Below are positions 19,130 to 46,848 of a DNA stretch of 48,064 bases, piece after piece; position 1 is the first letter of the stretch; each line of letters starts with the position of its first letter. The notes under the pieces are model-generated. The model ran no database searches, had not been told where the DNA came from, and saw only the letters and a program-made list of their open reading frames with translations. This stretch comes from Prevotella sp. (GTDB lineage: Bacteria > Bacteroidota > Bacteroidia > Bacteroidales > Bacteroidaceae), in assembly GCA_017395215.1 (NCBI GenBank), contig JAFPVW010000204.1, positions 1 to 48,064 of the forward strand, in the 5' to 3' direction. A program made the translations under genes and the position numbers.

Positions 19130-19260
19130 GACCCACCCCCCTGCCCCTCCCTGGAGGGAGGGGAGTGGTCAGATAAGAAAGAAAAAGAAAATGGAAGAAA
19201 CAAGAACCGATAGCCGAGTAGCCACTCCCCTCCCCCAAAGGGAGGGGCCGGGGGTGGGTC
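19130..19260. repeat. REP-like palindrome pair overlapping the murD start
   Basis: Arms of 40 bases at 19130-19169 and 19221-19260 are inverted copies of each other with few mismatches. Each arm is itself a hairpin (CCCCTCCC with GGGAGGGG). The outer ends read GACCCAC and GTGGGTC. The 51-base spacer contains the murD ATG. The right arm is translated in frame. The layout matches the elements in parE (32778-32882) and the GH3 gene (45678-45750). Confidence 0.85.
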
Positions 19261-20585
19261 TCATAGTTATATTAGGAGCCGGCGAGAGCGGAGCAGGAGC
19301 TGCCGTGCTGGCCAAGAAGCAAGGCTTCGACGTGTTTGTATCAGACATGTCGAAGATTGCCGACCGTTACAAGAAACTGCTCGACGACCACGGCATTGCG
19401 TGGGAGGAAGGCCAGCACACCGAAGAAAAAATCCTCTCGGCCGACGAGATTATCAAGTCGCCGGGCATCCCCGACACGGCGCCGATGGTCAGCAAGGCCA
19501 TCGAGAAGGGCATCCACATCATCAGCGAGATAGAGTTCGCAGGCCGCTACACCCAGTCGAAGATGATCTGCATCACCGGCTCCAACGGCAAGACTACGAC
19601 CACCTCGCTCATCTACCATATCTTCCGCCAGGCAGGCTACGACGCCGGTCTGGCCGGCAACATCGGCCACTCGCTGGCCCTGCAGGTGGCCGAGGAGCCC
19701 CACGAGTACTACATCATCGAGCTGTCGTCGTTTCAGCTCGACAACATGTACGACTTCCGGGCCAACATCGCCATCCTGCTGAACATCACGCCCGACCATC
19801 TGGACCGCTACGACAACTCCATGCAGAAGTACACCGACGCCAAGATGCGCATCATCCAGAACCAGACGCCGCAGGACGCCTTCATCTACTGGGCCGACGA
19901 CCCTGTCATTGCCAAGGAGCTGAAGAAGTACGACATCAAGGCCGTGCAGTGTCCGTTCTCCGACATCAAGAAGAGCGGCGTCATCGGCTACATCGAGGAG
20001 GGACAGTACAAGCTGGAATACCCGACGCCCTTCAACATGGAGCAGGAGGAGCTGAGCCTCTCTGGGCGCCACAACGTCTACAACTCACTGGCCGCCGGAC
20101 TGGCCGCCAACATCGCCGGCATCAAGAAGGAGTCCATCCGCAAGTCGCTGAGCGACTTCCCCGGTGTGGAGCACCGCTTGGAGAAGGTCTGCGACGTGCG
20201 CGGCGTCCACTACGTCAACGACTCGAAGGCCACCAACGTCGATGCCTGCTGGTACGCGCTGGAGTCGATGAAGACCCGCGTGGTACTCATCATCGGCGGC
20301 AAGGACAAGGGCAACGACTACGAGCCCATCAAGCCACTCATCCGCGAGAAGTGCTCGGCACTGGTCTACCTCGGTGCCGACAATGCCAAGCTCCACCAGA
20401 ACTTCGACGCGCTGGGCATCCCCGTGCGCGACACCCACTCCATGCGCGAGTGCATGGAGGCCTGCTACGAGCTGGCCAAGCCCGGCGAGACGGTGCTCCT
20501 CTCGCCCTGCTGCGCCTCCTTCGACCTGTTCAAGAACATGGAGGACCGCGGCGAGCAGTTCAAGGCCATAGCCCGCTCCCTCTAA
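19191..20585 (+). CDS. murD: UDP-MurNAc-L-alanine:D-glutamate ligase with element-derived N-terminus
   Basis: A 464-residue Mur ligase that adds D-glutamate to UDP-MurNAc-L-Ala in the cytoplasm. The conserved body starts LIVILGAGESGAGAAVLAKK, with ATP loop GSNGKTTTTS (Lys134), LNITPDHLDRY and NDSKATNVDA. The first 23 residues (through TPLPQREGPGVG) come from the right arm of a palindromic element and its spacer and are absent from normal MurD, which begins almost directly with the VILG strand. No ATG lies between the element and the conserved body, so translation must start upstream, at 19191, or at a GTG (19254) inside the arm. Confidence 0.93.
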   Translation: MEETRTDSRVATPLPQREGPGVGLIVILGAGESGAGAAVLAKKQGFDVFVSDMSKIADRYKKLLDDHGIAWEEGQHTEEKILSADEIIKSPGIPDTAPMVSKAIEKGIHIISEIEFAGRYTQSKMICITGSNGKTTTTSLIYHIFRQAGYDAGLAGNIGHSLALQVAEEPHEYYIIELSSFQLDNMYDFRANIAILLNITPDHLDRYDNSMQKYTDAKMRIIQNQTPQDAFIYWADDPVIAKELKKYDIKAVQCPFSDIKKSGVIGYIEEGQYKLEYPTPFNMEQEELSLSGRHNVYNSLAAGLAANIAGIKKESIRKSLSDFPGVEHRLEKVCDVRGVHYVNDSKATNVDACWYALESMKTRVVLIIGGKDKGNDYEPIKPLIREKCSALVYLGADNAKLHQNFDALGIPVRDTHSMRECMEACYELAKPGETVLLSPCCASFDLFKNMEDRGEQFKAIARSL

Positions 20586-20624
20586 CTCGTCAATCGAAAA
20601 TTCTGTAAATCGTAAATACTCAAG

Positions 20625-21890
20625 GTGAACAAGAAAATAGGCAATATCTTCAAAGGCGACAAGGTCATCTGGATGGTGTTCTTCTTCCTCTGCATGATCA
20701 GCATCATCGAAGTCTTCTCGGCTTCGAGCAACCTGACGTACAAGACGCAGAACTACATGGGTCCCATTGTCTACCATGCGGCCATGATAGTCGCCGGCGT
20801 CATCGTGGCCGTGGTGACGCTCAACGTCCCCTGCCGCTACTTCAAGCTGATGACGCCCTTCCTGCTGGTCATCACAACAATCACGCTGCTGTGGGTACTC
20901 ATAGGCGGCGAGAGCATCAACGGTGCCAACCGCGTCATCTCGCTGATGGGCTTCACCTTCCAGCCGTCGGAGATTGCCAAGGGCACGATGGTGCTCGTTA
21001 CGGCCCAGATTCTCAGTGCCATGCAGCGCGAGACGGGTGCCGACCGCAAGGCGTTCAAGTACATCCTGCTCATCCTGTTGCCCACGACGTTCCTGATCGG
21101 TATCGAGAACCTGTCGACGGCGGCCCTGCTCTTTGCCGTCATCTTCCTGATGATGTTCATCGGCCATGTGCCGATGTCGCAGATGGGCAAGCTGGCCGCC
21201 TTCCTTGCCGTGGGTGCAGCCGCCTTCCTGGTGCTGGTCCTGACGCTGGGCAGCATCGAGGAGAAGCGCACCGAGGAGAACCACATGACCGAGGTCGTCA
21301 ACGCCGCTGGCGAGGAGAGCGTCGACAAGGATGCCATCAAGGGCGGCGGCGTGTTCCACCGATTCTACACCTGGCGCAACCGCATCCTGAAGCATTTCAA
21401 CAGCGAGGAGGTGCCTGCCGAGGAGTACAAGATTGACGAGAACTTCCAGGTGGGCCACGCCAACATCGCCATCGCCTCGTCGGGCATCATCGGCAAGGGC
21501 CCGGGCAACTCCACCGAGCGCGACTACCTGCCGCAGGCGTTCTCCGACTTCATCTATGCCATCATCATCGAGGAGATGGGCATCTTCGGCGCCGCCTTCG
21601 TGGTGTTCCTGTATATCGTGCTGCTCTACCGTGCCGCCCGCATCGCCACACGGTGCGAGAACAACTTCCCGGCCTTCCTCATCATGGGTCTGGCTCTGCT
21701 GCTGGTCATCCAGGCCACGTTCAACATGATGGTGGCCGTGGGTCTGGCACCCGTCACGGGACAGCCGCTGCCTCTCATCTCGAAAGGCGGCACGTCGACC
21801 ATCATCAACTGTGCCTACATCGGAGCCATCCTGAGCATCAGCCGGTCGGCAAAGATGCGGACAGAAAAAGTTAGTATTGAAAAGATATGA
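20625..21890 (+). CDS. ftsW: FtsW lipid II polymerase (SEDS family)
   Basis: A 421-residue SEDS-family membrane protein, the septal glycosyltransferase partner of FtsI. Family blocks are FQPSEIAKG, the DYLPQAFSDFIYAIIIEEMGIFG segment and PLPLISKGGTS near the end. A hydrophilic region at about 205-275 separates two membrane halves. It begins with GTG; the first in-frame ATG would remove the start of the first membrane segment. It overlaps murG by 4 bases (ATGA). Confidence 0.94.
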   Translation: MNKKIGNIFKGDKVIWMVFFFLCMISIIEVFSASSNLTYKTQNYMGPIVYHAAMIVAGVIVAVVTLNVPCRYFKLMTPFLLVITTITLLWVLIGGESINGANRVISLMGFTFQPSEIAKGTMVLVTAQILSAMQRETGADRKAFKYILLILLPTTFLIGIENLSTAALLFAVIFLMMFIGHVPMSQMGKLAAFLAVGAAAFLVLVLTLGSIEEKRTEENHMTEVVNAAGEESVDKDAIKGGGVFHRFYTWRNRILKHFNSEEVPAEEYKIDENFQVGHANIAIASSGIIGKGPGNSTERDYLPQAFSDFIYAIIIEEMGIFGAAFVVFLYIVLLYRAARIATRCENNFPAFLIMGLALLLVIQATFNMMVAVGLAPVTGQPLPLISKGGTSTIINCAYIGAILSISRSAKMRTEKVSIEKI

Positions 21891-23008
21891 ATAAAGAGCT
21901 AAGAGTCATTGTCAGCGGTGGCGGCACCGGAGGCCACATCTTCCCCGCCGTCTCGATAGCCAACGCCGTGCGCCGCCTGCGCCCCGACGCCAAGATACTG
22001 TTCATCGGCGCACAGGGCCGCATGGAGATGCAGCGCGTGCCGGCGGCGGGCTACGAAATCAAGGGGCTGCCCATCCGCGGCTTCTACCGCCCGCTGTGGA
22101 AACCCGCCAACATCGGCGTGGCCTTCGACTACCTGCGCAGCAAGTGGCAGGCCAAGAAAATCCTGCGTGAGTTCCGGCCCGACGTGGCCGTCGGCGTGGG
22201 CGGCTATGCCAGCAGTGCCGCTCTCGGCGCTGCCAACAGCATGGGCATCCCGACGCTGATACAGGAGCAGAACAGCTACGCCGGCCTGGCCAACAAGCAG
22301 CTGGCCGCCAAGGCCCGCAAGATATGCGTGGCCTACGAGGGCATGGAGCGCTTCTTCCCCGCCGACAAGATCATGCTGACGGGCAACCCCGTGCGCCAGG
22401 CCCTGCTCGAGACCACCCTCTCGCGCGAGGATGCCGTCCGCAGCTTAGGCTTCGACCCTGAACGCAAGACCATCCTGCTCGTCGGCGGCTCGCTCGGCGC
22501 CCGCACCATCAACGAGAGCGTCATGCAGCACCTCGACCTCGTCGCCGCGAGCGGCGTGCAGTTCCTCTGGCAGACGGGCAAGTACTACTATGCCGACATC
22601 AAGTCGAAGCTCGAGAGCCGCCAGTCGAAAATGCCCAACCTGAAGGTCACCGACTTCATCACCGACATGGGCGCCGCCTACCGTGCCGCCGACCTCGTCA
22701 TCAGCCGTGCCGGCGCCAGCAGCATCAGCGAGTTCTGCCTCATCGGCAAGCCCGTCATCCTCGTGCCCAGTCCCAACGTGGCCGAGGACCACCAGACGAA
22801 GAACGCCCTGGCCCTGGCCAACCGCGACGCCGCCATCTACGTGAAGGATGCCGACGCCCCGGCCACGCTCCTGAAGCTGGCCATCGAGACCGTCAGCGAC
22901 GAGGCGAAGCTCCGCTCACTCAGCGAGAACGTGCTGAAGCTGGCCCTGCCCGACTCCGCCGAAATCATCGCCAAGGAAGTCATCAAACTCGCCCAAAATG
23001 CCCAATAA
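21887..23008 (+). CDS. murG: UDP-GlcNAc:lipid I N-acetylglucosaminyltransferase
   Basis: A 373-residue peripheral membrane glycosyltransferase (GT28) that makes lipid II. It has the N-terminal GGGTGGHIFPAVSIA loop, VGVGGYASSAALGAA, and a C-terminal UDP-GlcNAc site with LVGGSLGARTINE, ISRAGASSISE and PSPNVAEDHQ. It is translationally coupled to ftsW by ATGA. The last codons run into the tandem repeat that forms the murC start. Confidence 0.96.
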   Translation: MNKELRVIVSGGGTGGHIFPAVSIANAVRRLRPDAKILFIGAQGRMEMQRVPAAGYEIKGLPIRGFYRPLWKPANIGVAFDYLRSKWQAKKILREFRPDVAVGVGGYASSAALGAANSMGIPTLIQEQNSYAGLANKQLAAKARKICVAYEGMERFFPADKIMLTGNPVRQALLETTLSREDAVRSLGFDPERKTILLVGGSLGARTINESVMQHLDLVAASGVQFLWQTGKYYYADIKSKLESRQSKMPNLKVTDFITDMGAAYRAADLVISRAGASSISEFCLIGKPVILVPSPNVAEDHQTKNALALANRDAAIYVKDADAPATLLKLAIETVSDEAKLRSLSENVLKLALPDSAEIIAKEVIKLAQNAQ

Positions 23009-24425
23009 CCCCATCATGCCCACTAAGCCCATCATGCCCATCAACCCCATCATGAACACCAAAGATATCAAAGCCGTCTATTTCGTTGGCGCCGGCGGCA
23101 TCGGCATGAGCGCCATCGCCCGATACTTCATCAGGCGTGGCCTCGTCGTGGCCGGCTACGACAAGACGCCCAGCGACCTCACCCGCCGGCTGGAGCGCGA
23201 GGGCATGCTCATACACTACGAGGAGAACACCGACGAGATTCCCCACGCCTGCCGCCAGCCGCAGTCGTGCCTCGTCGTCTACACGCCCGCCATTCCCGCC
23301 GACCACAAGGAGCTGGTGTACTTCCGCGAGCACGGCTTCGACATCCAGAAGCGCGCACAGGTGCTCGGCACCATCACCCGGCAGATGAAGGGTCTCTGCG
23401 TGGCCGGTACGCACGGCAAGACAACCACCTCGACCATGTGCGCCCACATCATGCACCAGGCCTCGATGGACTGTAACGCCTTCCTCGGCGGTATCTCGAA
23501 GAACTACGGCACGAACTACATCCTCAGCGACTCCGACTTTGTCGTCATCGAGGCCGACGAGTTCGACCGCTCCTTCCACTGGCTGAGTCCCTGGATGACG
23601 GTCATCACCTCGACCGACCCCGACCACCTCGACATCTACGGCACGAAGGAGGCCTATCTTGAGAGCTTCCGTCACTACACGACGCTCATACAGCCCGGCG
23701 GCGCTCTCATCATCCATCGCGGACTCGAGATGCAGGAAGCGCTGCAGGAGGGCGTGCGACGCTACGACTACGCCCTCAGCGAGGGCGACTTCCACGCCGA
23801 GAACATCCGCATCGAGAACGGCGGCATCACCTTCGACTTCGTCTCGCCCATAGAACCGGTCAAGGACATCGTGCTCGGACAGCCCATACCTATTAACATA
23901 GAGAACGGCATCGCCGCCATGGCCATGGCCCAGCTGAACGGCTGCACCGCCGAGGAGCTGCGCTACGGCATGCGCACCTACGGGGGCGTGGACCGCCGCT
24001 TCGATTTCAAGATCAAGACCGACCGGCTCGTCTTCCTCAGCGACTACGCCCACCACCCGAAGGAAATCTACCAGAGCGCGCGCAGCATACGCCAGCTCTA
24101 CCACGACCGCCACATCACGGCCATCTTCCAGCCCCACCTCTACACCCGCACCCGCGACTTCTACCGCGAGTTTGCCGAGGCACTGAGCCAGCTCGACGAG
24201 GTGGTGCTGACCGAGATCTACCCCGCCCGCGAAGAGCCCATCGAGGGCGTCACGTCGCAGCTCATCTACGACAACCTCGCCCCCGGCGTCGAGAAGCGGC
24301 TGATACAGAAGGCCGACGTGCTCGACTTCGTCAAGAGCCGCGAGTTCGACGTACTCGTCGTGCTCGGTGCCGGCGACCTCGACAACCAAGTGCCCCAGAT
24401 AACCAAGATATTAGAAAAGAAGTAA
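22998..24425 (+). CDS. murC: UDP-MurNAc:L-alanine ligase with repeated start codons
   Basis: A 475-residue Mur ligase that adds L-alanine to UDP-MurNAc. Blocks include VYFVGAGGIGMSAIA, GTHGKTTTSTM, EADEFDRSF and DYAHHPKE. The family N-terminus corresponds to MNTKDIKAVYF at 23052. Upstream are three 18-base repeats (22998, 23016, 23034), each beginning with ATG and encoding MPxxPI, so four in-frame starts exist. The outermost overlaps murG by 11 bases and is listed here; 23052 is the likely ancestral start. The stop abuts the ftsQ ATG with no gap. Confidence 0.93.
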   Translation: MPNNPIMPTKPIMPINPIMNTKDIKAVYFVGAGGIGMSAIARYFIRRGLVVAGYDKTPSDLTRRLEREGMLIHYEENTDEIPHACRQPQSCLVVYTPAIPADHKELVYFREHGFDIQKRAQVLGTITRQMKGLCVAGTHGKTTTSTMCAHIMHQASMDCNAFLGGISKNYGTNYILSDSDFVVIEADEFDRSFHWLSPWMTVITSTDPDHLDIYGTKEAYLESFRHYTTLIQPGGALIIHRGLEMQEALQEGVRRYDYALSEGDFHAENIRIENGGITFDFVSPIEPVKDIVLGQPIPINIENGIAAMAMAQLNGCTAEELRYGMRTYGGVDRRFDFKIKTDRLVFLSDYAHHPKEIYQSARSIRQLYHDRHITAIFQPHLYTRTRDFYREFAEALSQLDEVVLTEIYPAREEPIEGVTSQLIYDNLAPGVEKRLIQKADVLDFVKSREFDVLVVLGAGDLDNQVPQITKILEKK

Positions 24426-25175: not shown

Positions 25176-25214
25176 TACCGTAATATCGTTATAACGTTAT
25201 ATCGACAAAGAAGT

Positions 25215-26678: not shown

Positions 26679-26729
26679 GAACGAGATAACGAGAAGAAGT
26701 AATAACGAAAAAGAAAGGAACAAACAACT

Positions 26730-28061
26730 ATGGCAGACAACAATATCATCGACATCCTCGACTTCGGCGAACCCGACAAGGAGGGCAGCAGCTACATCAA
26801 GGTCATCGGCGTCGGAGGCGGCGGCGGCAATGCCGTCAACCACATGTACCGCGAGGGCATTCACGACGTCACGTTCGTACTCTGTAACACCGATGCTCAG
26901 GCACTCAACGACTCGCCAGTGCCCGTTCACCTACAGCTCGGCTCCGAGGGTCTCGGTGCCGGCAACAAGCCCGAGCGCGCACGCCAGGCCGCCGAGGAGA
27001 GCTCGGACGACATCAAGAACATGCTCAGCGACGGCACGCGCATGGCCTTCATCACCGCAGGCATGGGCGGCGGCACCGGCACCGGTGCCGCACCCGTCAT
27101 CGCCCGCATCTCGAAGGAGATGGGCATTCTGACCGTCGGCATCGTCACCATCCCCTTCCGCTTCGAGGGTGCCCGCAAGATTGACCAGGCCCTCGACGGC
27201 GTCGAGGAGATGTCGAAGCACGTCGACGCACTGCTCGTCATCAACAACGAGCGCCTGCGCGAAATCTATCCCGACCTGTCGCTGACGGCCGCCTTCGGCA
27301 AGGCCGACGACACGCTGTCGGTCGCAGCCAAGTCGATTGCCGAGATCATCACCGTCCACGGACTCATCAACCTCGACTTCAACGACGTGAAGACCGTGCT
27401 CAAGGACGGTGGCGTCGCCATCATGTCGACCGGCTACGGCGAGGGCGAGGACCGTGTGAAGAAGGCCATCGAGGACGCCCTCCACTCGCCGCTGCTCAAC
27501 GACAACGACGTGTTCAACTCAAAGAAGATCCTGCTCTCAATCGCCTTCAACGAGGAGAAGGGCGGCAACGACAACTTCATGATGGAGGAGATGAACTACG
27601 TCAACGACTTCATGGACAAGTTCGGCGACTTCGAAATCAAGTGGGGCGTCGCCATCGACCCCGAACTGGGCAAGAAGGTGAAGGTCACCATCCTCGCCAC
27701 CGGCTTCGGCATCACCAACGTCGACGGCATGGAGGCCCGCCTGAAGAAGCACTCTCAGGAGGAGGCCAACCGCATTGCCGAGGAGCAGGAGAAGGCCGCC
27801 GCACGCGAGGAGCGTCGCGGACGCTACTACGGCGGCACCGACGGTGTGCGCCGCTACAAGCGCCGTCCGCACATCTACCTCTTCCGGCCCGAGGACCTCG
27901 ACAACGACGACGTCATCTCAGCCGTTGAGTCAACAGCCACCTACAAGCGCACCCGCGAGATTCTCGACAGCATCCACTCGCAGGCCACCGGCGACTATCT
28001 CAACGACACCAAGGACGGTACGCCGCAAGAGCCTCAGCAGGGTGTCATCAGCTTTGTATGA
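26730..28061 (+). CDS. ftsZ: FtsZ tubulin-like division GTPase
   Basis: A 443-residue FtsZ, which polymerises into the division ring. The nucleotide loop GMGGGTGTGAAP is near residues 110-121, with VIGVGGGGGNAVNHM at the start and NLDFNDVKTVL, the catalytic T7 loop, near 210-220. The variable C-terminal part from about 340 is charged and ends GVISFV. It is the last gene of the cluster. The terminal inverted repeat of a 250-bp element begins on the last base of its stop codon. Confidence 0.97.
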   Translation: MADNNIIDILDFGEPDKEGSSYIKVIGVGGGGGNAVNHMYREGIHDVTFVLCNTDAQALNDSPVPVHLQLGSEGLGAGNKPERARQAAEESSDDIKNMLSDGTRMAFITAGMGGGTGTGAAPVIARISKEMGILTVGIVTIPFRFEGARKIDQALDGVEEMSKHVDALLVINNERLREIYPDLSLTAAFGKADDTLSVAAKSIAEIITVHGLINLDFNDVKTVLKDGGVAIMSTGYGEGEDRVKKAIEDALHSPLLNDNDVFNSKKILLSIAFNEEKGGNDNFMMEEMNYVNDFMDKFGDFEIKWGVAIDPELGKKVKVTILATGFGITNVDGMEARLKKHSQEEANRIAEEQEKAAAREERRGRYYGGTDGVRRYKRRPHIYLFRPEDLDNDDVISAVESTATYKRTREILDSIHSQATGDYLNDTKDGTPQEPQQGVISFV

Positions 28062-28310
28062 TTGTCAATCACAGGTTTTATCCAACACTTCCTACACTTC
28101 CTACACCTAATAATATTGAACAGTCTCTTTGGCCAAGTGTAGCATCAGGTGTTGGTTCTTGAACGAAAGGCGCCGGGTTTTTGACAAAAGGCGCCGGGTT
28201 TTGCGCAAAACCCGGCGCCTTTTATTTGTTCCATGGCGTGGAACAAATCCCAGCATGGTTGCAGGTGCAGGAAGTGTAGGAAGTGTTGGATAAAACCTGT
28301 GATTCGCAAT
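28061..28310. mobile_element. MITE-like element with 48-bp terminal inverted repeats
   Basis: Bases 28061-28108 and 28263-28310 are inverted copies matching at 45 of 48 positions; the core reads TTTTATCCAACACTTCCTAC outward to inward. The element fills almost the whole gap between ftsZ and the convergent BNR_4 gene. A partial copy of the repeat motif (AAGTGTAG...GTGTTGG) occurs at 28135-28155. It has no ORF of its own and contains a strong terminator-like hairpin. It is a candidate non-autonomous transposon. Confidence 0.75.
28186..28223. terminator. Bidirectional terminator-like perfect palindrome
   Basis: A perfect 38-base palindrome: AAAAGGCGCCGGGTTTT, central GCGC, then its complement ending TTTT. 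The GC-rich stem flanked by A-run and T-run can terminate transcription from both sides, serving ftsZ (plus) and the BNR_4 gene (minus). The half motif AAAGGCGCCGGGTTTT also occurs just upstream at 28166-28181. A second hairpin follows at 28224-28248 (10-bp stem, 5-base loop). Confidence 0.75.
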
Positions 28311-28317
28311 CAGGGGC

Positions 28318-30879: not shown

Positions 30880-30901
30880 TGTAGTTATGGGTTTGGGGAG
30901 G

Positions 30902-32485
30902 TTATTGAATGATTTCGAGGGCCTTGCGGACGATGGCGTTCTCCTCGTTGAAAACGGAGAAATACTCGCTCATGTCCCAGAGGTCGCGGGCGATGAGGGC
31001 CTTGAGCTGGAGGCGGAGGTAGGGCAGGGTGCGCTGTAGCTCGGCGTCGTCCTTGGGCTCAATCTTCTGCTTCCGGCCTTCGGCGAGGATGTCGTCGACG
31101 AGCGACTGGGGCACCTCGAACTGCTGCTTGAAGAGGGCGAAGTCGGGGTAGCGCTTCTTCAGCTCACGGCGGTGGTTGTCGACATAGCGCAGGTTCTGCT
31201 GGATGACGACGCTCTTGGCGGCGAGCTGGCGGTGGAAGGGCGTGTAGCGGGTGGTGTCGAGGGGCACGAAGTAGTCGGGCATGATGCCGCCGCCACCATA
31301 GACGGTGCGCTGCTTGTGGAGGGTCTGGAAGCGTAGCGAGTCAGCGAAGTGGATGCTGTCCTGATTGGTGAGCTCACCCTTCTTCAGGCGGTTGTAGACG
31401 TCCATGGCGTAATCCTTCTGGTTGCCCTTCTCGTAGGGCTTCTGTATACAGCGGCCCGAGGGGGTGTAATAGTGGGCGATGGTGAGGCGTATCATCGAGC
31501 CGTCGGGGAGGTCGATGGGGCGCTGGACGAGGCCCTTGCCGAAGGAGCGGCGGCCGACGACAAAGCCGCGGTCCTGGTCCTGGACGGCGCCGGTGACAAT
31601 CTCGGCGGCCGAGGCGGTGTACTCGTCGATGAGCACGACGATCTTGCCCTTGGTGAAGAGGCCGTTGCCCTGGGCGCGGTATTCCTGACGGGGCACTCGG
31701 CGGCCCTCGGTGTAGACGATGAGCTCGTCGCGGGCGAGCAGCTCGTTGGCTATCTGGACGGCTGCCTGGAGGTAGCCGCCGCCATTCTCCTGGAGGTCGA
31801 GGACGAGGCTCTCCATGCCGCTGGCCTGGAGGCGCTGGACGGCCTCGCGGAACTCGTCGTGGGTGGTGGCGCCGAAGTTGCCGATGCGGATGTATCCGAC
31901 GGCGGGACGGATGATGTAAGCGGCGTCGATGGAGTGGACCGGAATCTTATCGCGCTCGACGGTGAACGTGAGGCGGTCCTTGATGCCCGTGCGGACGACG
32001 CCGAGGACGACCTTCGTGCCCTTGGGACCGCGCAGGCGGCGCATGATCTCCTCCTTCGACATCTTGACGCCGGCAATGGCGGAGTCGTTGACGGAGACGA
32101 TGCGGTCGCCGGCAATGATGCCCACCTTCTCAGAGGGGCCGTTGGTGACGGGCTGGATGACCATCAGCGTGTCGTCGATCATGTTGAACTGCACGCCGAT
32201 GCCCTCGAAGTTGCCGTTCAGCGGCTCGTTCATCTGCTTCACCTCCTTGGCGGTGGCGTACTGGGAGTGGGGGTCGAGCTTCTCGAGCATACCGCAGATG
32301 GCGTCCTCAACGAGCTTCTGCTCATCGACGGAGTCGACGTAGAGGTTGGCGGTGGCTACTTCGGCCATCTGTAACTTACGGAGGGGGGAGTTCTCGCCCA
32401 TATTGATGCGCAATTGGGCGAAAGAAATGAGGGCTGGCAGCTGTAATACAGCTGCAAACAGGACTATTTTTGCGATTCTATTCAT
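30902..32485 (-). CDS. S41 family C-terminal processing protease (CtpA-like)
   Basis: A 527-residue exported serine protease. Signal peptide (1-23), an N-terminal helical segment, a PDZ domain at about 92-180 ([32 protein letters not shown]), then the S41 core with Ser292 (EYTASAAEI) and Lys317 (SFGKGLVQ) as catalytic dyad, and [14 protein letters not shown] after it. Such proteases trim C-termini or degrade periplasmic proteins. Its start overlaps the parE stop by 8 bases. A second copy of the [12 protein letters not shown] block lies at the far end of the window. Confidence 0.93.
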
Positions 32486-34493
32486 ACTGGTTTTCCTCGG
32501 GGCGGTCTTCCTCGATGACGAGGTTGTCGATGATGAAGTTCTGGCGCTCCATCGTGTTCTTGCCCATGTAATATTCTAACAGTTTCTGTACTTGGTCGGT
32601 CTTGTGGAGCGTGACCTGCTCGAGGCGGATGTCGGGACCGATGAAGCCGGCAAACTCCTCGGGACTGATCTCGCCGAGACCCTTGAAGCGGGTGATCTCG
32701 GGGTCGGGACCGAGGTCGGCGATGGCCTTCAGGCGCTCCTCCTCGCTGTAGCAATAGCGCACGACATAGTCGGACTTAGCCCCAGCCCCTCCCGCTGAGG
32801 GGAGGGGAGTAGTTACATTCTTCCCGTCACTCAGTGCTTGTGGGTGATTACTCCCCTCCCCTCTGTGGGAGGGGTTGGGGCTTTTCTTCTTGATTTTGGC
32901 CCGCTTGTTCCTTACGCGGAACAGGGGGGTCTGGAGGACGTAGACGTGGCCCTTCTTGATGAGCTCGGGGAAGAACTGCAGGAAGAAGGTGATGATGAGC
33001 AGGCGGATGTGCATGCCGTCGACATCGGCATCGGTGGCGACGATGACCTTGTTGTAGCGCAGGGTGTCGAGACCGTCCTCAATGTCGAGGGCTGCCTGCA
33101 GCAGGTTGAACTCCTCGTTCTCGTAGACCACCTTCTTGGTGAGGCCGAACGTGTTGAGGGGCTTCCCCCGCAGCGAGAAGACCGCCTGGGTGTTGACGTC
33201 GCGGCTCTTGGTGATGCTGCCGCTGGCAGAGTCGCCCTCGGTGATGAAGATACACGACTCCTCCTTGCGGTCGTCCTTGGCGTCGTTGAAGTGGATAAGG
33301 CAGTCGCGCAGCTTGCGGTTGTGGAGGTTGGCCTTCTTGGCACGCTCGCGTGCCAGCTTGGTGATGCCGGCCATGGCCTTGCGGTCGCGCTCGCTCTCCT
33401 TGACCTTGTTCTCGATGGCCTCGGCCACGTCGCCGTGGATGTGAAGGTAGTTGTCGACCTCCTGCTTGATGAAGTCGCCGACGTACTTGTTGATGCTGAC
33501 GCCGTCGGGGGCCATGGTCAGCGAGCCGAGCTTGATCTTCGTCTGGCTCTCGAACATCGGCTCCTCGACGTTGATGGCGATGGCTGCGACGATACCCGTG
33601 CGGATGTCGCCGTACTCGTACTTGCCGAAGAACTCCTTGATGGTGCGGGCGATGTGCTCCTTGAAGGCGCTCTGGTGGGTGCCGCCCTGCGTGGTGTGCT
33701 GGCCGTTGACGAAGGAGTGGTACTCCTCGCCGTACTGGTTGGCGTGGGTGAAGGCAATCTCGATGTCGTCGCCCTGCAGGTGGATGATGGGATAGAGCGG
33801 CTCAGTGGTCATGCGGTCCTTGAGCAGGTCCTCCAGGCCGTGGCGCGAGAGGATGCGGCGACCGTTGTACATGATGGTGAGGCCGGTGTTCAGATAGGTA
33901 TAGTTGCGGAGCATATTCTCCACAATCTCATCGTGGAACTGATAGTTCAGAAACTTCGTGTCGTCGGGCTCGAAGTAGATGTACGTACCGTTCTCATCGC
34001 TCGACGGCTCCGTCACGTCGTTCTTCAGCTCGCCGTACTCAAAGGTGGCACGGCGCACCTTGCCATCGCGGTAGCTGTGTACCTCGAAATGCCTGCTCAG
34101 CGCATTGACAGCCTTCACACCCACACCATTCAGGCCGATGGACTTCTTGAAAGCCTTCGAGTCGAACTTGCCGCTGGTGTTGAGGATGCTCACCGACTCG
34201 ATGAGCTTGCCCTGGGGGATGCCGCGACCATAGTCACGCACAGATATGCGCAGCCCGTCCTCGACGGTTACCTCAATGCGGTCGCCGGCATGCATCTTGA
34301 ACTCGTCGATGGAGTTGTCGAACACCTCCTTCAACAGCACGTAGATGCCGTCCTCAGCCGACGAGCCGTCGCCCAGACGGCCAATATACATGCCGGGACG
34401 CAGACGGATATGCTCCAAACCGGTCAAAGTCTGGATATTATTCTCGTCGTACTCGATGTTTTCCTGTGGTTTGTTATTGATATCTTCGTTCAT
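32478..34493 (-). CDS. parE: DNA topoisomerase IV subunit B with in-frame palindrome insertion
   Basis: A 671-residue type IIA topoisomerase ATPase subunit. The GHKL domain has [31 protein letters not shown] and [12 protein letters not shown]. The Toprim domain has TEGDSASGS and the metal-binding [10 protein letters not shown]. Overall fit is closer to ParE than GyrB. Residues 538-572 are not native: they are exactly the 105-bp element at 32778-32882, placed between [12 protein letters not shown] and [13 protein letters not shown] in the Toprim region. The start MNEDINN is 8 bases after the upstream GNAT stop; the frame stays open much further upstream but without family similarity. Confidence 0.93.
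32778..32882. repeat. REP-like palindrome pair inside parE
   Basis: Arms of 36 bases (32778-32813 and 32847-32882) are inverted copies with about four mismatches around a 33-base spacer. Each arm is a hairpin (CCCCTCCC with GGGAGGGG type). Total length is 105 bases, exactly codons 538-572 of parE, with both ends on codon boundaries. The translated peptide is Pro/Ser/Gly rich ([10 protein letters not shown] at its start, [12 protein letters not shown] at its end). Confidence 0.92.
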
Positions 34494-35656: not shown

Positions 35657-35697
35657 CTTATTTAGCTTAATAATGTTGTTTCCGTACAAATATGTGG

Positions 35698-35705: not shown

Positions 35706-35735
35706 CACCTTTTTTTTCAAAAAATAAAAGAAAAA

Positions 35736-35767
35736 TTTGGATTTTTCAATAAGTTAAACTACTTTTG
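35736..35767 (+). promoter_or_regulatory. Promoter of the OmpA-like gene
   Basis: TTTG (35736-35739), a 20-base spacer and TACTTTTG (35760-35767) match the Bacteroidetes consensus in both boxes. The A/T-rich run upstream (35709-35735) may act as an UP-like element. The leader to the ATG is about 40 bases. Confidence 0.8.
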
Positions 35768-35811
35768 CAAGCAAAAGCAGAAAAAACAACAATTACTAAT
35801 CGCTATTAAGT

Positions 35812-37008
35812 ATGAAAAAACTATTATCGCTTGCAGCTCTTTCGCTGCTGTTAACCAACACCGTGACGGCACAGGATCACTGCAAAAACGGTCCGAAGCT
35901 GAAGTCTTACAACTACGTCGAAGTGCAGGGCGGTATGGAGTGGACGACTACCAATGCTAAGATTGACAAGCTGCTCTCGCCCATCGGGGCCGTGTCGTTC
36001 GGCCATTACTTCTCGCCCGTCGTGGGTGCACGTCTGCACGTCTCGGGACTGCAGGCCAAGGGTCGTTTCGAGAGCCTGGACAAGGACTACAAGTGGAACT
36101 TCATCACCACTGACGCCGACCTGATGCTGAACCTCAGCAACCTCTTCAGCTGCTGCAACTACAGCCACCCGGTGAACGTCATCCTCGTGGGAGGTATCGG
36201 TCTGGCCAACGCCTGGAAGAACGACGACATGAAGGCCCTCGTACAGACCAATCCCGGTCTGGCCCCCCTGGCCTGGACCAGCGACAACCGCCTGAGCCAC
36301 AACCTGCGCGCCGGTCTGCGCTTAGAGACCAACGTGACGAAGCCCCTGGGCCTCTCGTTAGAGATTGACGCCAACAGCATGGACGACCGCTTCAACTCGA
36401 AGGTCAACGACGCCGACGACTGGATGATCAGCGGCATGCTTGGCCTGAGCTACCGTTTCGGCTACAAGAACACCAAGCCCCGCCAGGTGGTTCGCCAGGT
36501 CGAGGAGGAAGTTTGGGTTGACGTTCCCGACACCATCACTGTCAAGGAGAAGCGCCCCATCGTGAAAGAGGAGCAGAAGAAGATTAATGAGGTTATTTTC
36601 TTCGAGATCCGCGAGAGCGACGCCAACGCCGCCCAGGGCACTGAGAAGGCCATCAAGGACGTGGCCGACCTGATGAAGACCTCGGAAGACGCCAAGTTCA
36701 CCGTTACCGGTTACGCTGACAAGGGCACCGGCAACCCCAAACTGAACAAGATGTACGCTCAGAAGCGTGCTGAAGACGTTACCAACAAACTCATCAACGA
36801 GCACGGTATCGACGCCTCACGCATCCAGAGCGACTCGAAAGGTGACACCGTACAGCCGTTCGAGGAGAACGACAAGAACCGCTGCGTCATCATTACCGGT
36901 GAGGGAACATTCAAGGTGACGACCTACGAGGAGTACGACACCCAGAAGGTGACCACCAAGAAGGTGAAGAAGACGGTGACCCGCGACGTGATAGAGGAAG
37001 TGTACTAA
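35812..37008 (+). CDS. OmpA-family outer membrane protein
   Basis: A 398-residue outer membrane protein. Signal peptide (1-20, TVTAQ), an eight-stranded beta-barrel-like part (YVEVQGGMEW, SFGHYFSPVVGARLHV, GMLGLSYRFGY) to about 222, then a linker and a C-terminal OmpA peptidoglycan-binding domain (VIFFEIRESDANAA, YADKGTGNPKLNKMYAQKRAEDV). The tail is Thr/Lys-rich (EYDTQKVTTKKVKKTVTRDV). It should anchor the outer membrane to peptidoglycan. Its stop overlaps the convergent methyltransferase stop by 3 bases. Confidence 0.9.
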   Translation: MKKLLSLAALSLLLTNTVTAQDHCKNGPKLKSYNYVEVQGGMEWTTTNAKIDKLLSPIGAVSFGHYFSPVVGARLHVSGLQAKGRFESLDKDYKWNFITTDADLMLNLSNLFSCCNYSHPVNVILVGGIGLANAWKNDDMKALVQTNPGLAPLAWTSDNRLSHNLRAGLRLETNVTKPLGLSLEIDANSMDDRFNSKVNDADDWMISGMLGLSYRFGYKNTKPRQVVRQVEEEVWVDVPDTITVKEKRPIVKEEQKKINEVIFFEIRESDANAAQGTEKAIKDVADLMKTSEDAKFTVTGYADKGTGNPKLNKMYAQKRAEDVTNKLINEHGIDASRIQSDSKGDTVQPFEENDKNRCVIITGEGTFKVTTYEEYDTQKVTTKKVKKTVTRDVIEEVY

Positions 37009-38147
37009 ACAACCTTATGGCAGACGAACAGTCGTCTGTCGCCAGTGGCGAGGGTGGTAGCAAAAATATAAGTGCTGCCACCCTCGCTTAGTTTCAGGCG
37101 GCGGCGCAGCTCGGCTACCGAAAGGGGGAAGTTGCGCACGGTGATGTTGGCCTGCGTCAGCCCCTGCAGCGTCTCCTTCAAGTCGCGCTTGTTCATGGTT
37201 GTGACGGCGTCAATTTGGAAAGAGCGGCCGGGGAAACCGCTGACGTGGTCGGCCGAGACGAAGAGGTGGCTGTCGTGGGCGATGGGGACCACACCGTAAA
37301 GCTGCGACAGCTCGGTAAAGCAGCCGGCCTTCATAATCGAGGCGTTGGGCTCGTAGAGGTAATGGGGAGAATGGGCGGTTTGGGGTGCTTGGGCGATTTG
37401 GGCGGTGGGTTCAAACACTTGGTCGTCGTTTACGCAGAGCAGGCGCTGGCCGCTGCCGCTGCCCAAAAGCAGCAGCAACTCCTTACACTCGTTGCCTACC
37501 GAGACGATATGCACCTCGTGGACGTATTGCTCGCCAAGGTCGCTGACGGCCTTGCGCCAGTCGAGCATCGGCGAGAGTTTCAGGAGCACTTGTCTGGCCT
37601 TTGACAGAAGCAGGTCGCGCAGGGCCAGCACGTCGGGCGTGCAGTCGCTGATGCCGTAGGTCCGGGCGCCGTGATTGTCGCGTCGGGCGGGGTCGGCGTA
37701 GATGACGTCAACCGGGGACATCGCCTGAAGATAGTCCGTACTGTCGCCACAGACCACTTCGGCCTGGCTGAGTCCCAACAGCCGGAAGTTCTCGCGGGCA
37801 ATGGCGCAGAGCTGCTCCTGGCACTCCACATAGACGGCACGCTGAAAGCCACGCGCCAGGAACGAGAAGTCGACGCCGAAGCCGCCGGTCAGGTCGACCA
37901 TCGTGCCGCCGGAGCCAATAAGGCTGGCCTTGTAGCGCGCTGTCTGCTCGCTGGAACACTGCTCCATCGAGAGGTGCGGCGGATAGACGATGCCATCGAT
38001 GGCTGCCCACGACGGCAGCTTATGCCGCGCCGTCTGCCTGCCCGCTATCTGGTCGAGGGCGAACGGCAGGTCAACCTCGGGGTCTTTCGTTCCCCGAAGC
38101 GCCAGTTGCCGCACGTCGGCATCAGCATTTTGGCGGATAAACGCCAT
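37005..38147 (-). CDS. Class I SAM methyltransferase, THUMP-like / PG_1098 type
   Basis: A 380-residue protein. The SAM-binding strand-loop is MVDLTGGFGVD (residues 83-93), followed by AVYVECQEQLCAIARENF and VIYADPARRD. The C-terminus (FPLSVAELRRRLKLSEGGSTYIFATTL) is the THUMP-like domain seen with PG_1098 proteins, pointing to an RNA or tRNA substrate. A low-complexity stretch (TAQIAQAPQTAHSP) from the repeat at 37361-37408 sits in a loop. Start 38147 (MAFIRQ) is preferred over a GTG at 38165 that lies in a repetitive spacer. Confidence 0.8.
   Translation of the reverse strand: MAFIRQNADADVRQLALRGTKDPEVDLPFALDQIAGRQTARHKLPSWAAIDGIVYPPHLSMEQCSSEQTARYKASLIGSGGTMVDLTGGFGVDFSFLARGFQRAVYVECQEQLCAIARENFRLLGLSQAEVVCGDSTDYLQAMSPVDVIYADPARRDNHGARTYGISDCTPDVLALRDLLLSKARQVLLKLSPMLDWRKAVSDLGEQYVHEVHIVSVGNECKELLLLLGSGSGQRLLCVNDDQVFEPTAQIAQAPQTAHSPHYLYEPNASIMKAGCFTELSQLYGVVPIAHDSHLFVSADHVSGFPGRSFQIDAVTTMNKRDLKETLQGLTQANITVRNFPLSVAELRRRLKLSEGGSTYIFATTLATGDRRLFVCHKVV
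37361..37408. repeat. Low-complexity GCCCAA-type repeat inside the methyltransferase gene
   Basis: On the minus strand the sequence is a run of about five units of 8-10 bases resembling ACCGCCCAAA, giving an Ala/Gln/Pro-rich peptide between the QVFEP and YLYEPNAS segments. The related unit CATGCCCAA occurs at the murC start. Confidence 0.6.
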
Positions 38148-38168
38148 TGTCGCCTCACTATTCACTCT

Positions 38169-39466: not shown

Positions 39467-39500
39467 AATGCGTTCTTTGATAATGAATAGATAGCGAGTG

Positions 39501-39508
39501 CAAAAATA
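39501..39508 (-). promoter_or_regulatory. Promoter -7 box of the DUF3237 operon
   Basis: The minus strand reads TATTTTTG, with a TTG 20 bases upstream of it (plus coordinates 39529-39531). It precedes the DUF3237 start by 34 bases and would drive DUF3237, IMPase and methyltransferase genes. Confidence 0.6.
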
Positions 39509-39552
39509 GTAAAAACTTGTCAACGGCGCAACAAAAAGTGAGAAAATATGCT

Positions 39553-39560
39553 TACCTTTG
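39553..39560 (+). promoter_or_regulatory. Promoter -7 box of the LD-carboxypeptidase operon
   Basis: TACCTTTG lies 38 bases before the ATG at 39599. The -33 box is not clear. It is divergent from the DUF3237 promoter, within a 132-base gap. Confidence 0.6.
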
Positions 39561-39598
39561 CAATCAAATAACATTTTTACCTTTTACACCCGAGAAAG

Positions 39599-41871: not shown

Positions 41872-41910
41872 ACACATCTATTCACGTTACCAAAACATGC
41901 AAAACCATAT

Positions 41911-43458: not shown

Positions 43459-44295
43459 GACTTGTTGTCTGGGCTCTAACCGGCTGAGGTCAAGTTTCTT
43501 GCCCAGACGGCTTTTCGTTGAGCGCAGTGCCTGCTCCGTACAGCAGAAGCACTGCGCTTTCTGCTGTTCGGTCTTGCCGTAGTACCGCATGATGCAATAG
43601 AAAGTCTCCTTGGGCGTCAGTTCAACCGAACTGAGGATGCCGGCCAAGGTGGGGTCAACGATGTGCAGCGTCTCGGTAACGGCCAGCTGCTCGCGCTTGC
43701 CCATCTGCGAGATGTTCTCGTTGTGGAGGATGGCGTAGAGCACGTCGACGCCCTGTTTCGTGCGGACGATGTCGGCACGGATGGCGGCAGGCTGTTCCGG
43801 TTCGTCGGTCTCGACAGCCATGCTCTCCATCAGCTCGTCCACCTTCCGCTCGAAAGCCGCCTTGCGCCGTCGGCTCCACCACAGGCCGCCACCTATGACA
43901 GCCAGTAAAAGTGCGATGAAACCGCCGAAAATGAAGCGGTCGTGACTGCGTCCCTGCTCGTTGGCCGCCTGCTGCAGGCGCACAAACTCCACGGTCTGGC
44001 CCTCCGGCAGCACCGCCATCACCATCTCGGCCTGCTCCTTCTTGTCCTCCAGGATAAAGACCAGCGAGAGCATAGTCAGGGCGTCGGCCATCTCGGCCGA
44101 GTCAGCCGACAGGATGGCAGCGCTGTAGGCCCGCTGCTCCGCCGTCCGCAGGTCGTGGTCGCCCACGGCCTCCATGGCCTCGTTTATCAGCTGTTCAGTG
44201 TCCGATGTCCGGGGCGCATTTTCCGTACAAGCCGCCGCTAAAAGCAGGGCTGCGCATAAAAAGGCTGTGTCAAAGAGCCGTCTAAGAGTTCTCAT
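43453..44295 (-). CDS. Membrane-anchored regulator with C-terminal LuxR-like HTH
   Basis: A 280-residue protein. An N-terminal signal with possible lipobox (LLLAAAC, Cys23) is followed by a helical TPR-like part (QRAYSAAILSADSAEMADALTML), a membrane segment at about 121-140 (FIFGGFIALLLAVIGGGLWW), and a cytoplasmic C-terminal HTH-like region at about 225-275 (ELTPKETFYCIMRYYGKTEQQKA). This topology matches Bacteroidetes TPR-transmembrane-HTH regulators. The start MRTLRR at 44295 gives the best signal sequence. It is convergent with yifB. Confidence 0.7.
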   Translation of the reverse strand: MRTLRRLFDTAFLCAALLLAAACTENAPRTSDTEQLINEAMEAVGDHDLRTAEQRAYSAAILSADSAEMADALTMLSLVFILEDKKEQAEMVMAVLPEGQTVEFVRLQQAANEQGRSHDRFIFGGFIALLLAVIGGGLWWSRRRKAAFERKVDELMESMAVETDEPEQPAAIRADIVRTKQGVDVLYAILHNENISQMGKREQLAVTETLHIVDPTLAGILSSVELTPKETFYCIMRYYGKTEQQKAQCFCCTEQALRSTKSRLGKKLDLSRLEPRQQVL

Positions 44296-44353
44296 AACTA
44301 ATTGGTTTTCAATATGTCCGTCTTCGCAAAGCGTGTCAGTCGACTTAGCCCTA

Positions 44354-44384
44354 TTGCAGAAGCCGCCAAAAAGCACTATCTTTG
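44354..44384 (+). promoter_or_regulatory. Orphan promoter reading into the GH3 3' end
   Basis: TTG (44354-44356), a 20-base spacer and TATCTTTG (44377-44384) form a full consensus promoter. It does not precede a recognised gene. It is followed by ATG 44402, which opens a 63-residue frame (MSTANQRQRGGQIRTGRR at its start) that runs antisense into the GH3 gene from 44464. The product may be an antisense RNA or the remnant of a lost gene. Confidence 0.6.
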
Positions 44385-44463
44385 CACCGACATACTTACC
44401 AATGTCAACTGCAAACCAACGTCAGCGCGGCGGCCAGATTAGGACTGGTCGCCGCTCGTCGTA

Positions 44464-46848
44464 TTATTGTTTCAAGAGGTTCAGCTTCACTTTCGGGGCG
44501 AGGGCGTTGGAGACCTTCTCCGTGTACTGCCCGACCTTGGCGGTGGCGGTGCAGCGGATGTCGCGGCTCGACGCACCGATGTTGAAAGTATAGTTGCCGC
44601 CTTCCGTGAGCCACTGCGAGCCAGCCTCGTCGAACGAGGCGAGCATGCGGACGGGAATCTGCATCGTCAGCGTCTCGCTCTCGCCGGGCTTCAGCTCGCG
44701 CGTCTTGGCAAAGGCCTTCAGTTCCTGGGCGGACTTCTCTATCTGGCCCTTCGGGGCGGTGACGTAGACTTGGGCCACCTCCTTGCCGGCAACCTTGCCG
44801 GTGTTCTTGACGGTGACTGAAACGGTGACGTTATTGCCACTCACCTTGACCGCAGGCTTGCTGTAGGCAAACGTGGTATAGCTGAGGCCGAAGCCGAAAG
44901 GATAGGACACCTCTTTATTAAAGGTGTCGAAGTAGCGGTAGCCCACGTAGATGTCCTCCTCGTGATTGGTGAAGTCGTAGTTGGCCAACTTTCTTTCGCC
45001 TGTCCGCGCCACCTGGTAGGTGTAGAAGTCGACCAGGCCCGGGAAGTTGCGGGTCGAGGGATGGTCGGTGGCGGCGAGGGGCCACGTCATCGTCAGTTTG
45101 CCGGAGGGGCACACCTTGCCCGTCAGAATGTCGGCAACCGAATTGCCGCCCTCCTCGCCGGGCTGCCAGGCACAGACGATGGCATCGGGATAGCTGTTCC
45201 AGGAGGCCGTCTCGATGACCGAGCCACTGTTGATGATGACCACCACGGGCTTTCCGGCAGCGTGGAAGGCCTGACAGACGTCGATGATGAGCTGGCGCTC
45301 CTCGGGGATGAGGTTGAACTCCGTCTCAAGGTCGCGGTCGATGCCCTCGCCGGCCTGACGGCCGATGGTTACAATGGCAGCGTCGGCGCCCTGCACCTCC
45401 TTGCCGATGGCAATGGCGTTGACGGCAATCTCAGGATATTTCTGCGGTCCCATCTCCTCAGTCTGGAACCACTTGGCGGGATGGCGCTCGTACTGGAACT
45501 TCACGCGGGCATAGTCAACATACTTGCGGTAGATGTCGGTCAGCGACTCCGACGACTTGATACCGGCATTCTTCAGACCCTCCACCATATCGACCACGTA
45601 AGGCGTATGAACACAGCCGGAGCCTACGCCGCCGGGCAGGAAGTTGTAGCTGTTCTCGCCGAAGAGGGCGACGGTAAGTCCCCCTCCGCCTCCCCCGAGG
45701 GGGAGCGTCAGCCGTGGCTCACCTCCCCTCGGGGAGGCTGGGTGGGGGCCATTCTTCAGCAGCACGATGCCCTCGCAGGCCGTCTGGCGGGTGATGGCGG
45801 CGTGGCCCTTCAGGTCAGGCTTGTTCGTGGCGGGGTACTTATGGAAACTCGGTGTCTTGACGATGTATTCCAGCATACGGCGCACGTTGCGGTCGACGTC
45901 GGCCATCGAGAGCTTGCCACTCTTCACGCCCTCAATAATCTCGTTTACCTGAGCGGGCTGTCCCGGTTCCATCAGGTCGTTGCCGGCCTGCACCTCGGTG
46001 ATGGTGGGCAGTCCCTGACGGATGCCTATCCAGTCGGTCATGACGATGCCCTTGTAGCCCCAGTCGTCGCGCAGGATGCTGGTCAGCAGGTCGCGGTTTC
46101 CCATGGAGTACTGGCCGTTCACCTGGTTATACGACGACATGATGGTCCAGGGCTGGCTCTCGCGGACGGCAATCTCGAAGCCGCGCAGGTAGAGTTCGCG
46201 GAGAGCGCGCTGGCTCACCCGCTCGTCGACGCTGGTGCGCTCGGTCTCCTGAGAGTTCACGGCGAAGTGCTTGGCCGACACGCCGGCGCCCTGACTCTGC
46301 ACACCGTTGATGTAGGCGGCACCGATCTTGCCCGTCACAAACGGATCCTCAGAGTAGTACTCGAAGTTGCGCCCGCAGAGCGGCGAGCGGTGCAGGTTCA
46401 TGCCCGGACCGAGGATGACGTCGCAGCGGTACTCCTTGGTCTCGTTGCCGATGGCCTCGCCCACCTTTCCTACCAGCTCCGTGTTCCACGTCGAGGCCAG
46501 ACAGGTGCCTATGGGAAATCCCGTGGCGTAGTACGTCTGGCTGTCACCCTTACGGGTTGGGTCGATGCGTACGCCGGCAGGGCCGTCGGTGAGCACCGTG
46601 GCCGGAATGCCCAAGCGGGCAATCTCGGGCGACGTTCCGGCCGCGCCGGCCACCAGTGTGGCTTCGCCGCCAACGACGGCCTGGTCGCCGAAGAAGTTGT
46701 TGGCACCGCCGACGAGCAGTCGGGCTTTCTCTTCGAGTGTCATGGCCTGGAGCACCTCGTCGATGTTTGTGGCCGAGAGTTTGGGCTGTCCGTTCATTGT
46801 CATCATGCAAGTTGTGGCCGCAAGGGCCGTCAGAATAGTTTTTTTCAT
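44464..46848 (-). CDS. GH3 beta-glucosidase-type enzyme with in-frame palindrome insertion
   Basis: A 794-residue secreted glycoside hydrolase family 3 enzyme. Signal peptide (1-20), N-terminal TIM barrel with DGPAGVRI, KHFAVNSQE and the nucleophile Asp272 (VMTDWIG), a second domain with VALFGENSYNF and VTIGRQAGEG, and a C-terminal fibronectin III-like domain (GKEVAQVYVTAPKG). Residues about 367-391, between IVLLKN and TVALFG in the linker joining the domains, come from the palindromic element at 45678-45750. The likely substrate is a beta-glucoside or xyloside; specificity is not predictable. Confidence 0.92.
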   Translation of the reverse strand: MKKTILTALAATTCMMTMNGQPKLSATNIDEVLQAMTLEEKARLLVGGANNFFGDQAVVGGEATLVAGAAGTSPEIARLGIPATVLTDGPAGVRIDPTRKGDSQTYYATGFPIGTCLASTWNTELVGKVGEAIGNETKEYRCDVILGPGMNLHRSPLCGRNFEYYSEDPFVTGKIGAAYINGVQSQGAGVSAKHFAVNSQETERTSVDERVSQRALRELYLRGFEIAVRESQPWTIMSSYNQVNGQYSMGNRDLLTSILRDDWGYKGIVMTDWIGIRQGLPTITEVQAGNDLMEPGQPAQVNEIIEGVKSGKLSMADVDRNVRRMLEYIVKTPSFHKYPATNKPDLKGHAAITRQTACEGIVLLKNGPHPASPRGGEPRLTLPLGGGGGGLTVALFGENSYNFLPGGVGSGCVHTPYVVDMVEGLKNAGIKSSESLTDIYRKYVDYARVKFQYERHPAKWFQTEEMGPQKYPEIAVNAIAIGKEVQGADAAIVTIGRQAGEGIDRDLETEFNLIPEERQLIIDVCQAFHAAGKPVVVIINSGSVIETASWNSYPDAIVCAWQPGEEGGNSVADILTGKVCPSGKLTMTWPLAATDHPSTRNFPGLVDFYTYQVARTGERKLANYDFTNHEEDIYVGYRYFDTFNKEVSYPFGFGLSYTTFAYSKPAVKVSGNNVTVSVTVKNTGKVAGKEVAQVYVTAPKGQIEKSAQELKAFAKTRELKPGESETLTMQIPVRMLASFDEAGSQWLTEGGNYTFNIGASSRDIRCTATAKVGQYTEKVSNALAPKVKLNLLKQ
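45678..45750. repeat. REP-like palindrome pair inside the GH3 gene
   Basis: Two GC-rich hairpins in opposite orientation, 45678-45708 and 45716-45750, are separated by only 7 bases. Hairpin cores are CTCCCCC-GA-GGGGGAG type and CCTCCCC with GGGGAGG. Outer ends carry CCCACCC-like sequence as in the murD copy. It is translated in frame as a Pro/Arg/Gly-rich peptide ending in a Gly run. Confidence 0.8.

Follow-up and report, generated by a model that had tools for sequence, protein, structure and literature searches.

Coding palindromes, and fusions of miniature inverted-repeat transposable elements (MITEs) with open reading frames (ORFs), are already known from the Rickettsia palindromic elements (RPEs) and from intragenic repetitive extragenic palindromes (REPs), on the accounts given in PMC2229807, PMC10969869 and PMC3733652. 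RPEs are described in the first two of these sources as short palindromes, 105-146 bp long, that contain an open frame and lie in frame within conserved genes as well as in intergenic DNA. For the GTAG and CGTC REPs of Di Nocera 2013, as presented in PMC3733652, the CGTC type has a stem of 8-9 bp and a loop of 4-5 nt and forms head-to-head dimers; intragenic REPs there mostly encode 20-30 amino acids, and CGTC REPs have no dedicated transposase. ERIC, Yersinia YPAL and other MITEs are portrayed in PMC2229807 as non-autonomous elements of about 100-200 bp, most with inverted repeats, that also give in-frame fusions. The present analysis concerns a palindromic element found at the start of murD and within a parE and a GH3 gene of a Prevotella stretch of 48,064 nucleotides (contig JAFPVW010000204.1, assembly GCA_017395215.1), hereafter the window. 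No prior report of such a family in Prevotella was found in the literature searched, which covered few subscription papers.

The element very probably belongs to a family of non-autonomous coding palindromes resembling MITEs and REPINs (REP doublets forming hairpins). The window's genome (G000) is a Prevotella-type metagenome-assembled genome (MAG) of 3.6 Mb in 211 contigs, 85% complete with 5.9% contamination. A covariance model of the arm built from 72 arms (R1, cut-off E<=0.01) recovered at least 141 arms, a lower bound because 150 of the 1074 first-look candidates were scored, and a similar hairpin pattern gave 77 matches over the whole genome against none when read backwards. The 141 arms grouped into 97 clusters, namely 41 head-to-head pairs, one ++- group, one -+ group and 54 single matches. 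Head-to-head pairs made up 41 of the 43 clusters with more than one arm, and several single matches gained weak partner arms in a permissive scan. Contig ends lie no more than about 100 bases from at least 10 copies, which is what assembly breaks at the repeat would produce.

Arms followed the layout GACCCACCCCCRG - CCCCTCCC - short loop, mostly 3-6 nt - GGGAGGGG - AGTARWTAC, and split into several loop and head subfamilies. A related spacer near TCTCAAGACGGAGATGCAGCGGAAGGA and an equal spacing were common to many pairs in G000 and its relatives; the full unit was therefore taken as about 115 bp, in which two inverted 43-bp arms enclose a 27-nt spacer that is conserved in part. Two sense frames of the consensus are open, one of them reading THPQPLPVREGSIYSQDGDAAEGLSTPLPHREGLGVG, and all three antisense frames are closed. 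With 43-bp inverted arms, a length of about 115 bp, many copies and no transposase encoded by the unit, the family has the make-up of a MITE. No candidate parent transposon, in the form of an arm pair 1-3 kb apart, was seen among the coordinates of the R1 matches in this 85% complete genome. Viral contigs gave four exact matches (two near-identical contigs with one arm, two proteobacterial-looking contigs), and plasmid and phage records gave no match to the element.

Within the window, the hairpin CCCCTCCC-N3-12-GGGAGGGG occurred 4 times versus 0 in 100 shuffles, and Rfam gave no match over positions 18000-48064. The murD-start element (19130..19262, + strand) consists of arm 1 at 19131-19172 (+), an A-rich spacer at 19173-19217 and arm 2 at 19218-19260 (-); its arms score 48.7 and 57.9 bits with R1, and a second model, R2, gives 62.1 bits on the + strand. 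The spacer holds an ATG at 19191, from which murD (19191..20585, +) reads with a 24-residue N-terminal extension, MEETRTDSRVATPLPQREGPGVGL followed by IVILGAGES. About half of this extension is encoded by arm 2, and the MurD N-terminal Pfam domains start at residue 25. Arm 1 is open in the murD frame, no ATG being seen there, and judging from this layout the spacer ATG at 19191 is the likely start, with arm 2 only translated.

The parE-internal element (32773..32887, - strand) has arms at 32773-32816 (+) and 32844-32887 (-) and reads in frame as 36 residues within a parE-type topoisomerase subunit gene (32478..34493, -; start MNEDINNK picked by homology), with Toprim on one side and the GyrB_C domain on the other. 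R2 scores 74.1 bits on the - strand versus 52.5 on the +, the sense strand of the model being the coding strand. The AlphaFold2 model of ParE is poor (mean pLDDT 47); it places the insert, residues 537-573, between strands 525-530 and 576-581, and the block means of 25-28 make the insert one of its least confident parts. The GH3 copy (about 45678..45750, - strand) lies in frame as GPHPASPRGGEPRLTLPLGGGGGGL straight after EGIVLLKN, and a GH3_C match at 361-657 continues across it. It matches the arm model weakly (19.4 bits, E 0.37) and belongs to a diverged subfamily; a second GH3 of the window's genome (31% identity) has a typical element copy at the same loop. The palindrome pairs that the preliminary description had reported at these three loci were thus recovered close to where it had placed them. 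That observation is confirmed, qualified in that the GH3 copy is of a diverged subfamily and that at murD arm 2 alone is likely translated.

Gene context in G000 was assessed by codon scoring of the 180-nt flanks of the 97 clusters. In-frame, stop-free clusters numbered 34; another 12 had same-strand flanks in different frames, 6 had the same frame with a stop, 27 had one coding flank, 10 were non-coding and 8 were not assessable at contig ends. Among the 34 in-frame ORFs, 10 had a single Pfam alignment spanning the insert (CN-hydrolase, MnmA, DUF6057, HAD, LacZ barrel, RND pump, NAD epimerase, Tex, DUF6055 and DUF5107), gene names beyond Pfam being recognised from sequence. Six more had their family matched in two stretches, the place of the second stretch not being displayed (alanine racemase, RND, two OEP, MATE and DapF). 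For the remaining in-frame ORFs the call relies on codon usage, as the inserts lie in linkers or in ORFs without a spanning family. One glutamate synthase large-subunit gene (L061, G000:C206) carried several arms in one open frame. The 18 clusters with a frame shift or stop, read singly, each look like a two-gene junction, and no frameshifted gene was seen among the 97. One multiplied repeat family lying in frame within unrelated genes, some of them normally essential, had been proposed from the window, and the genome-wide search bears this out on a much larger scale.

At 13 or more of these 18 junctions, the second gene has its start codon within the spacer or next to it, and its N-terminus is formed by arm 2 or a lone arm. 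The genes concerned are murD of the window and, elsewhere in the genome, sufD, rnhB, bamA-like and lolC-like genes, meaB, a carbohydrate kinase, an S4 protein, an AMP-binding enzyme, two ABC genes, an efflux OMF and one more. For the five other junctions (L116, L133, L127, L048:3433 and L114) the start was taken to follow the matched arm; L127, where a further arm lies downstream, may belong with the 13. In all 10 N-terminal cases scanned, the best Pfam match leaves the extension out, beginning where it ends or further on. Over G000 and ten relatives, 108 full-length pairs comprised 49 in frame, 32 at junctions and 27 others; the 16 junctions of relatives that were read were all taken as such, with the start inside the element in 10.

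In-frame copies also showed a preferred orientation. The spacer profile was derived from 13 copies classed as non-intragenic, one of which (L126:75) was scored in frame by codon scoring, and the comparison was limited to in-frame copies of span 112-120 (30 of the 49), with L043 excluded by hand. A higher score in the coding direction was obtained for 24 of these 30 copies; where the call was clear, 19 were sense and 1 was antisense. The antisense consensus has no open frame, and purifying selection on the genes therefore suffices to explain the sense bias. The suggestion that the family is selected for in-frame tolerance likewise requires no more than purifying selection. An earlier script tally of 22 sense versus 4 antisense (margin >=10) was not relied on; of its four antisense calls, L136 and L061 come from split matches on the other strand, L022 belongs to another subfamily, and L043, counted among the 49 in frame, is judged a start-site copy. 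Peptides of the ..GRGVDTSSADNSGEKGNYSPPSQGG.. type were considered as antisense copies, and their spacer profile was mixed.

Arms (E<=0.001) were present in 15 of 40 genomes searched, that is, in 15 of 24 from the window's genus and in none of 16 from other families of the order. Six of the 15 arm-bearing relatives had one match each. R2 gives low scores in some relatives, including G003, G016 and G019, which apparently have other subfamilies. Empty sites were clear at murD, whose start had no arm in 26 of 26 relatives (arm model, E<=0.1). The junction, read by eye in 22 relatives, has a native ATG AAG AGA directly followed by ATA GTT (as in G212), and the window's genome reads AAGAG, the element, then TC and ATA GTT. 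At rnhB, the genes are 3 nt apart in G167, one close relative among the four relatives' loci shown; the spacer start codon in the window's genome is therefore probably not native. The idea that the start-site spacer is the native start region was accordingly not borne out for murD or rnhB against relatives.

The parE site had a short loop in 25 of 30 fetched loci, recognisable pairs in the window's genome and G161, diverged inserts in G204 and G050, and a different tandem repeat in G072. Among 80 named ParE loci, which have some records in common with the 30 and include Prevotella, Xylanibacter and Segatella, the element was absent from the site in all 48 that were parsed, and arms (E<=0.01) were found in 3 of the 80 scanned. 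Two MAGs, RUG742 among them, carry a pair at the start of parE whose spacer contains an ATG. A methyltransferase-like gene of RUG742 likewise holds an insert in frame, one that is missing from the corresponding gene of the window (37005-38165). The naturally variable length of the parE loop would suit ancestral, low-complexity Pro/Gly linkers that look palindromic by chance and involve no mobile DNA. However, the same arms and a related spacer recur in unrelated genes, between genes and in different arm frames, and close relatives have no element at the murD site; sharing of arms and spacer at the nucleotide level contradicts such linkers, which are a most improbable explanation.

The inverted hairpin pairs would also fit a classical REP/REPIN family moved by a resident REP-associated tyrosine transposase (RAYT, TnpA_REP), the mobilisation put forward in the preliminary description. 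Y1_Tnp (PF01797, E<=0.001) has two genes with open frames in the window's genome and occurs together with elements there and in G011, G014, G016, G050, G083, G161 and G167, and PMC6006769 describes a RAYT subclass of Bacteroidota whose REPs are atypical. Over the 41 distinct genomes compared, however, Y1_Tnp was missing from element-rich G003, G048, G173, G019, G212, G204, G072 and G023, the first four being 99%, 97%, 93% and 91% complete, respectively. Conversely, G010, G004 and G104 have Y1_Tnp, yet neither model finds copies in them, and several genomes have neither. The 40 stretches around Y1 matches yielded one arm (E<=0.01), 1.1 kb off in G083, and none flanking; two weak matches (22.6 and 16.6 bits) near a Y1 gene of the window's genome are more than 2 kb away. 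No GTAG/GTGG or CGTC tag stands 5' of the stem. Across the 72 aligned arms the GTAG-type tag is lacking, the sequence 5' of the stem being GACCCACCCCCRG-like; GTAG occurs only 3' of the stem and in part of the arms, and the other strand begins near GTAWCTAC. By eye, neither CGTC at the 5' end nor a CCA-like tail was present beside the stem on either strand of the arm alignment. With Y1_Tnp missing from near-complete element-rich genomes and present in element-free ones, movement by a RAYT is quite unlikely.

The history of individual copies was followed at sites common to species, namely an outer-membrane efflux gene (window's genome and G048) and a GH2 gene (window's genome and G167), besides the MeaB, kinase, S4 and OMF junctions. 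Different element types occupy the same loop in an Mfd-like gene (G022, G072 and G161), an ABC transporter (window's genome, G167 and G173), DUF5107, an HD protein, ParE and the two GH3 of the window's genome. CarA and CarB are joined by an element in one open frame in the window's genome, G050 and G083. The frame in G050 (L366) has three separate palindrome-type inserts, all in frame. Between the window's genome and G050, differences by codon position in the CarA-CarB insert are 9/10/9, versus 6/5/42 in the flanks; for the ParE insert compared with G161 they are 18/18/16, versus 11/5/38. In these two diverged internal inserts the predicted peptide drifts and the frame is kept. For the other six pairs compared in this way, changes were too few or unbiased to judge.

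Copies at gene starts behaved differently from one another. With flank counts reconstructed from rounded percentages, the MeaB start element (2/132 versus 99/600 differences, p ~1e-7), the kinase element (5/154 versus 105/600) and the OMF, an efflux-protein gene (6/135 versus 99/597), were each more conserved than both flanks. Such conservation in 3 of 7 start regions, unique spacer included, would fit start-site copies domesticated as translation-initiation elements and kept by selection, the start codon falling in the loop region of an RNA hairpin of 37-45 bp. Each of five elements folded as RNA indeed formed one long hairpin (z -7.3 to -11.1), and the start lies in or beside the element at the junctions already counted, at least 13 of 18 in the window's genome and 10 of 16 in relatives. 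Yet the four other start-region pairs lack this conservation, the S4, LeuC and LpxA-like spacers being unlike (48-62% identical) and the ABC pair (G167/G173) mixed, and the internal OEP (p 0.04) and GH2 (p 0.03) copies likewise differ slightly less than their flanks do. Strong hairpins near a start codon, moreover, normally lower translation initiation. Domestication of this kind is possible and rather doubtful. A broader proposal, equally tentative, is that the elements act as portable start modules, ending the upstream gene, offering an ATG in an A-rich hairpin loop and supplying a new N-terminus, and also travel as passengers; some copies would be domesticated, internal ones would be neutral, and one would link CarA to CarB in three species.

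For the non-autonomous family favoured here, the two 43-bp GC-rich hairpin arms, inverted around their 27-nt spacer, would be copied in trans by some enzyme and land at many sites, and landings that leave the gene functional would persist. Within genes, copies would be retained mostly in one orientation and frame as linkers about 25 to 50 residues long and rich in Pro, Gly, Ser and Arg, at tolerated internal sites such as the variable ParE loop, and would be neutral there. At gene starts, arm 1 would sit in or beside the end of the upstream gene, a longer A-rich spacer would give a new start codon, and arm 2 would turn into a new N-terminus. That the family is active, as first suggested, has indirect support in sites that differ among species, transposition itself not having been observed.

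Several points weigh against this interpretation. No transposase was identified for the family, and no clear target-site duplication was seen by eye at the empty murD site. Just past the murD match in G016 (L295 2900-3269) stands a direct array of six arms, spaced about 66 nt, unlike the head-to-head pairs found elsewhere. Six of the 30 orientation-tested copies score lower in the coding direction, labels being uncertain with drifted spacers, and some of the 30 are orthologues. Copies of relatives were drawn from score-ranked lists and not at random, most genomes look like MAGs, and the copies are known from assemblies alone. Translation of the inserts is presumed from open frames, codon usage and homology.

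Other repeats were seen nearby. A second inverted-repeat element past ftsZ (28059-28312) has 50-nt arms, 94% complementary, with a terminator-like hairpin inside, and its left arm overlaps the ftsZ stop codon. A nine-base tandem repeat at the murC start (22991-23062) encodes MPNNPIMPTKPIMPINPIM; the parE loop of G072 is filled by a comparable CCAACACC repeat. Blocks of the GGGATCTGTGAGATCTGTGTGACAT type lie at 1-109, 6400-6508 and 6592-6700, the second and third being 94% and 62% identical to the first; a copy in inverted orientation occupies 6514-6545. A twelve-base tandem repeat, AGCCGAAGGAAG, is present in about ten copies at 8707-8886.

If the family is what it appears to be, coding palindromes, best known from Rickettsia, also occur in Prevotella, a group prominent in gut and rumen, and the conserved enzymes of each genome would contain dozens of in-frame insertions that arose naturally. 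These would mark out loops that tolerate insertion, serve as a natural experiment in how linkers and N-termini originate, and provide a testable case of a start codon carried by a mobile element. Annotation should take note, as many Prevotella proteins may hold element-encoded stretches like THPQPLPVREGS...STPLPHREGQGVGL.

Compared with the REPs of Di Nocera 2013, as presented in that source, the Prevotella element likewise has short hairpin stem-loops, head-to-head dimers and in-gene coding copies, but it lacks a GTAG/CGTC tag 5' of the stem, has outer heads GACCCACCCCC, and forms a unit of about 115 bp whose spacer is asymmetric and partly conserved. ERIC and YPAL, as described, differ in hosts and ends, while Prevotella copies lie in conserved enzymes and provide start codons. 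The analogy with RPEs drawn in the preliminary description is good at the level of function, and of function only: both are short palindromes with an ORF, in frame in unrelated conserved genes. Unlike RPEs, the Prevotella family belongs to a different phylum, consists of a head-to-head arm pair with a 27-nt spacer, often uses the spacer ATG as a gene start, and has different subtypes inserted at the same loop in different species.

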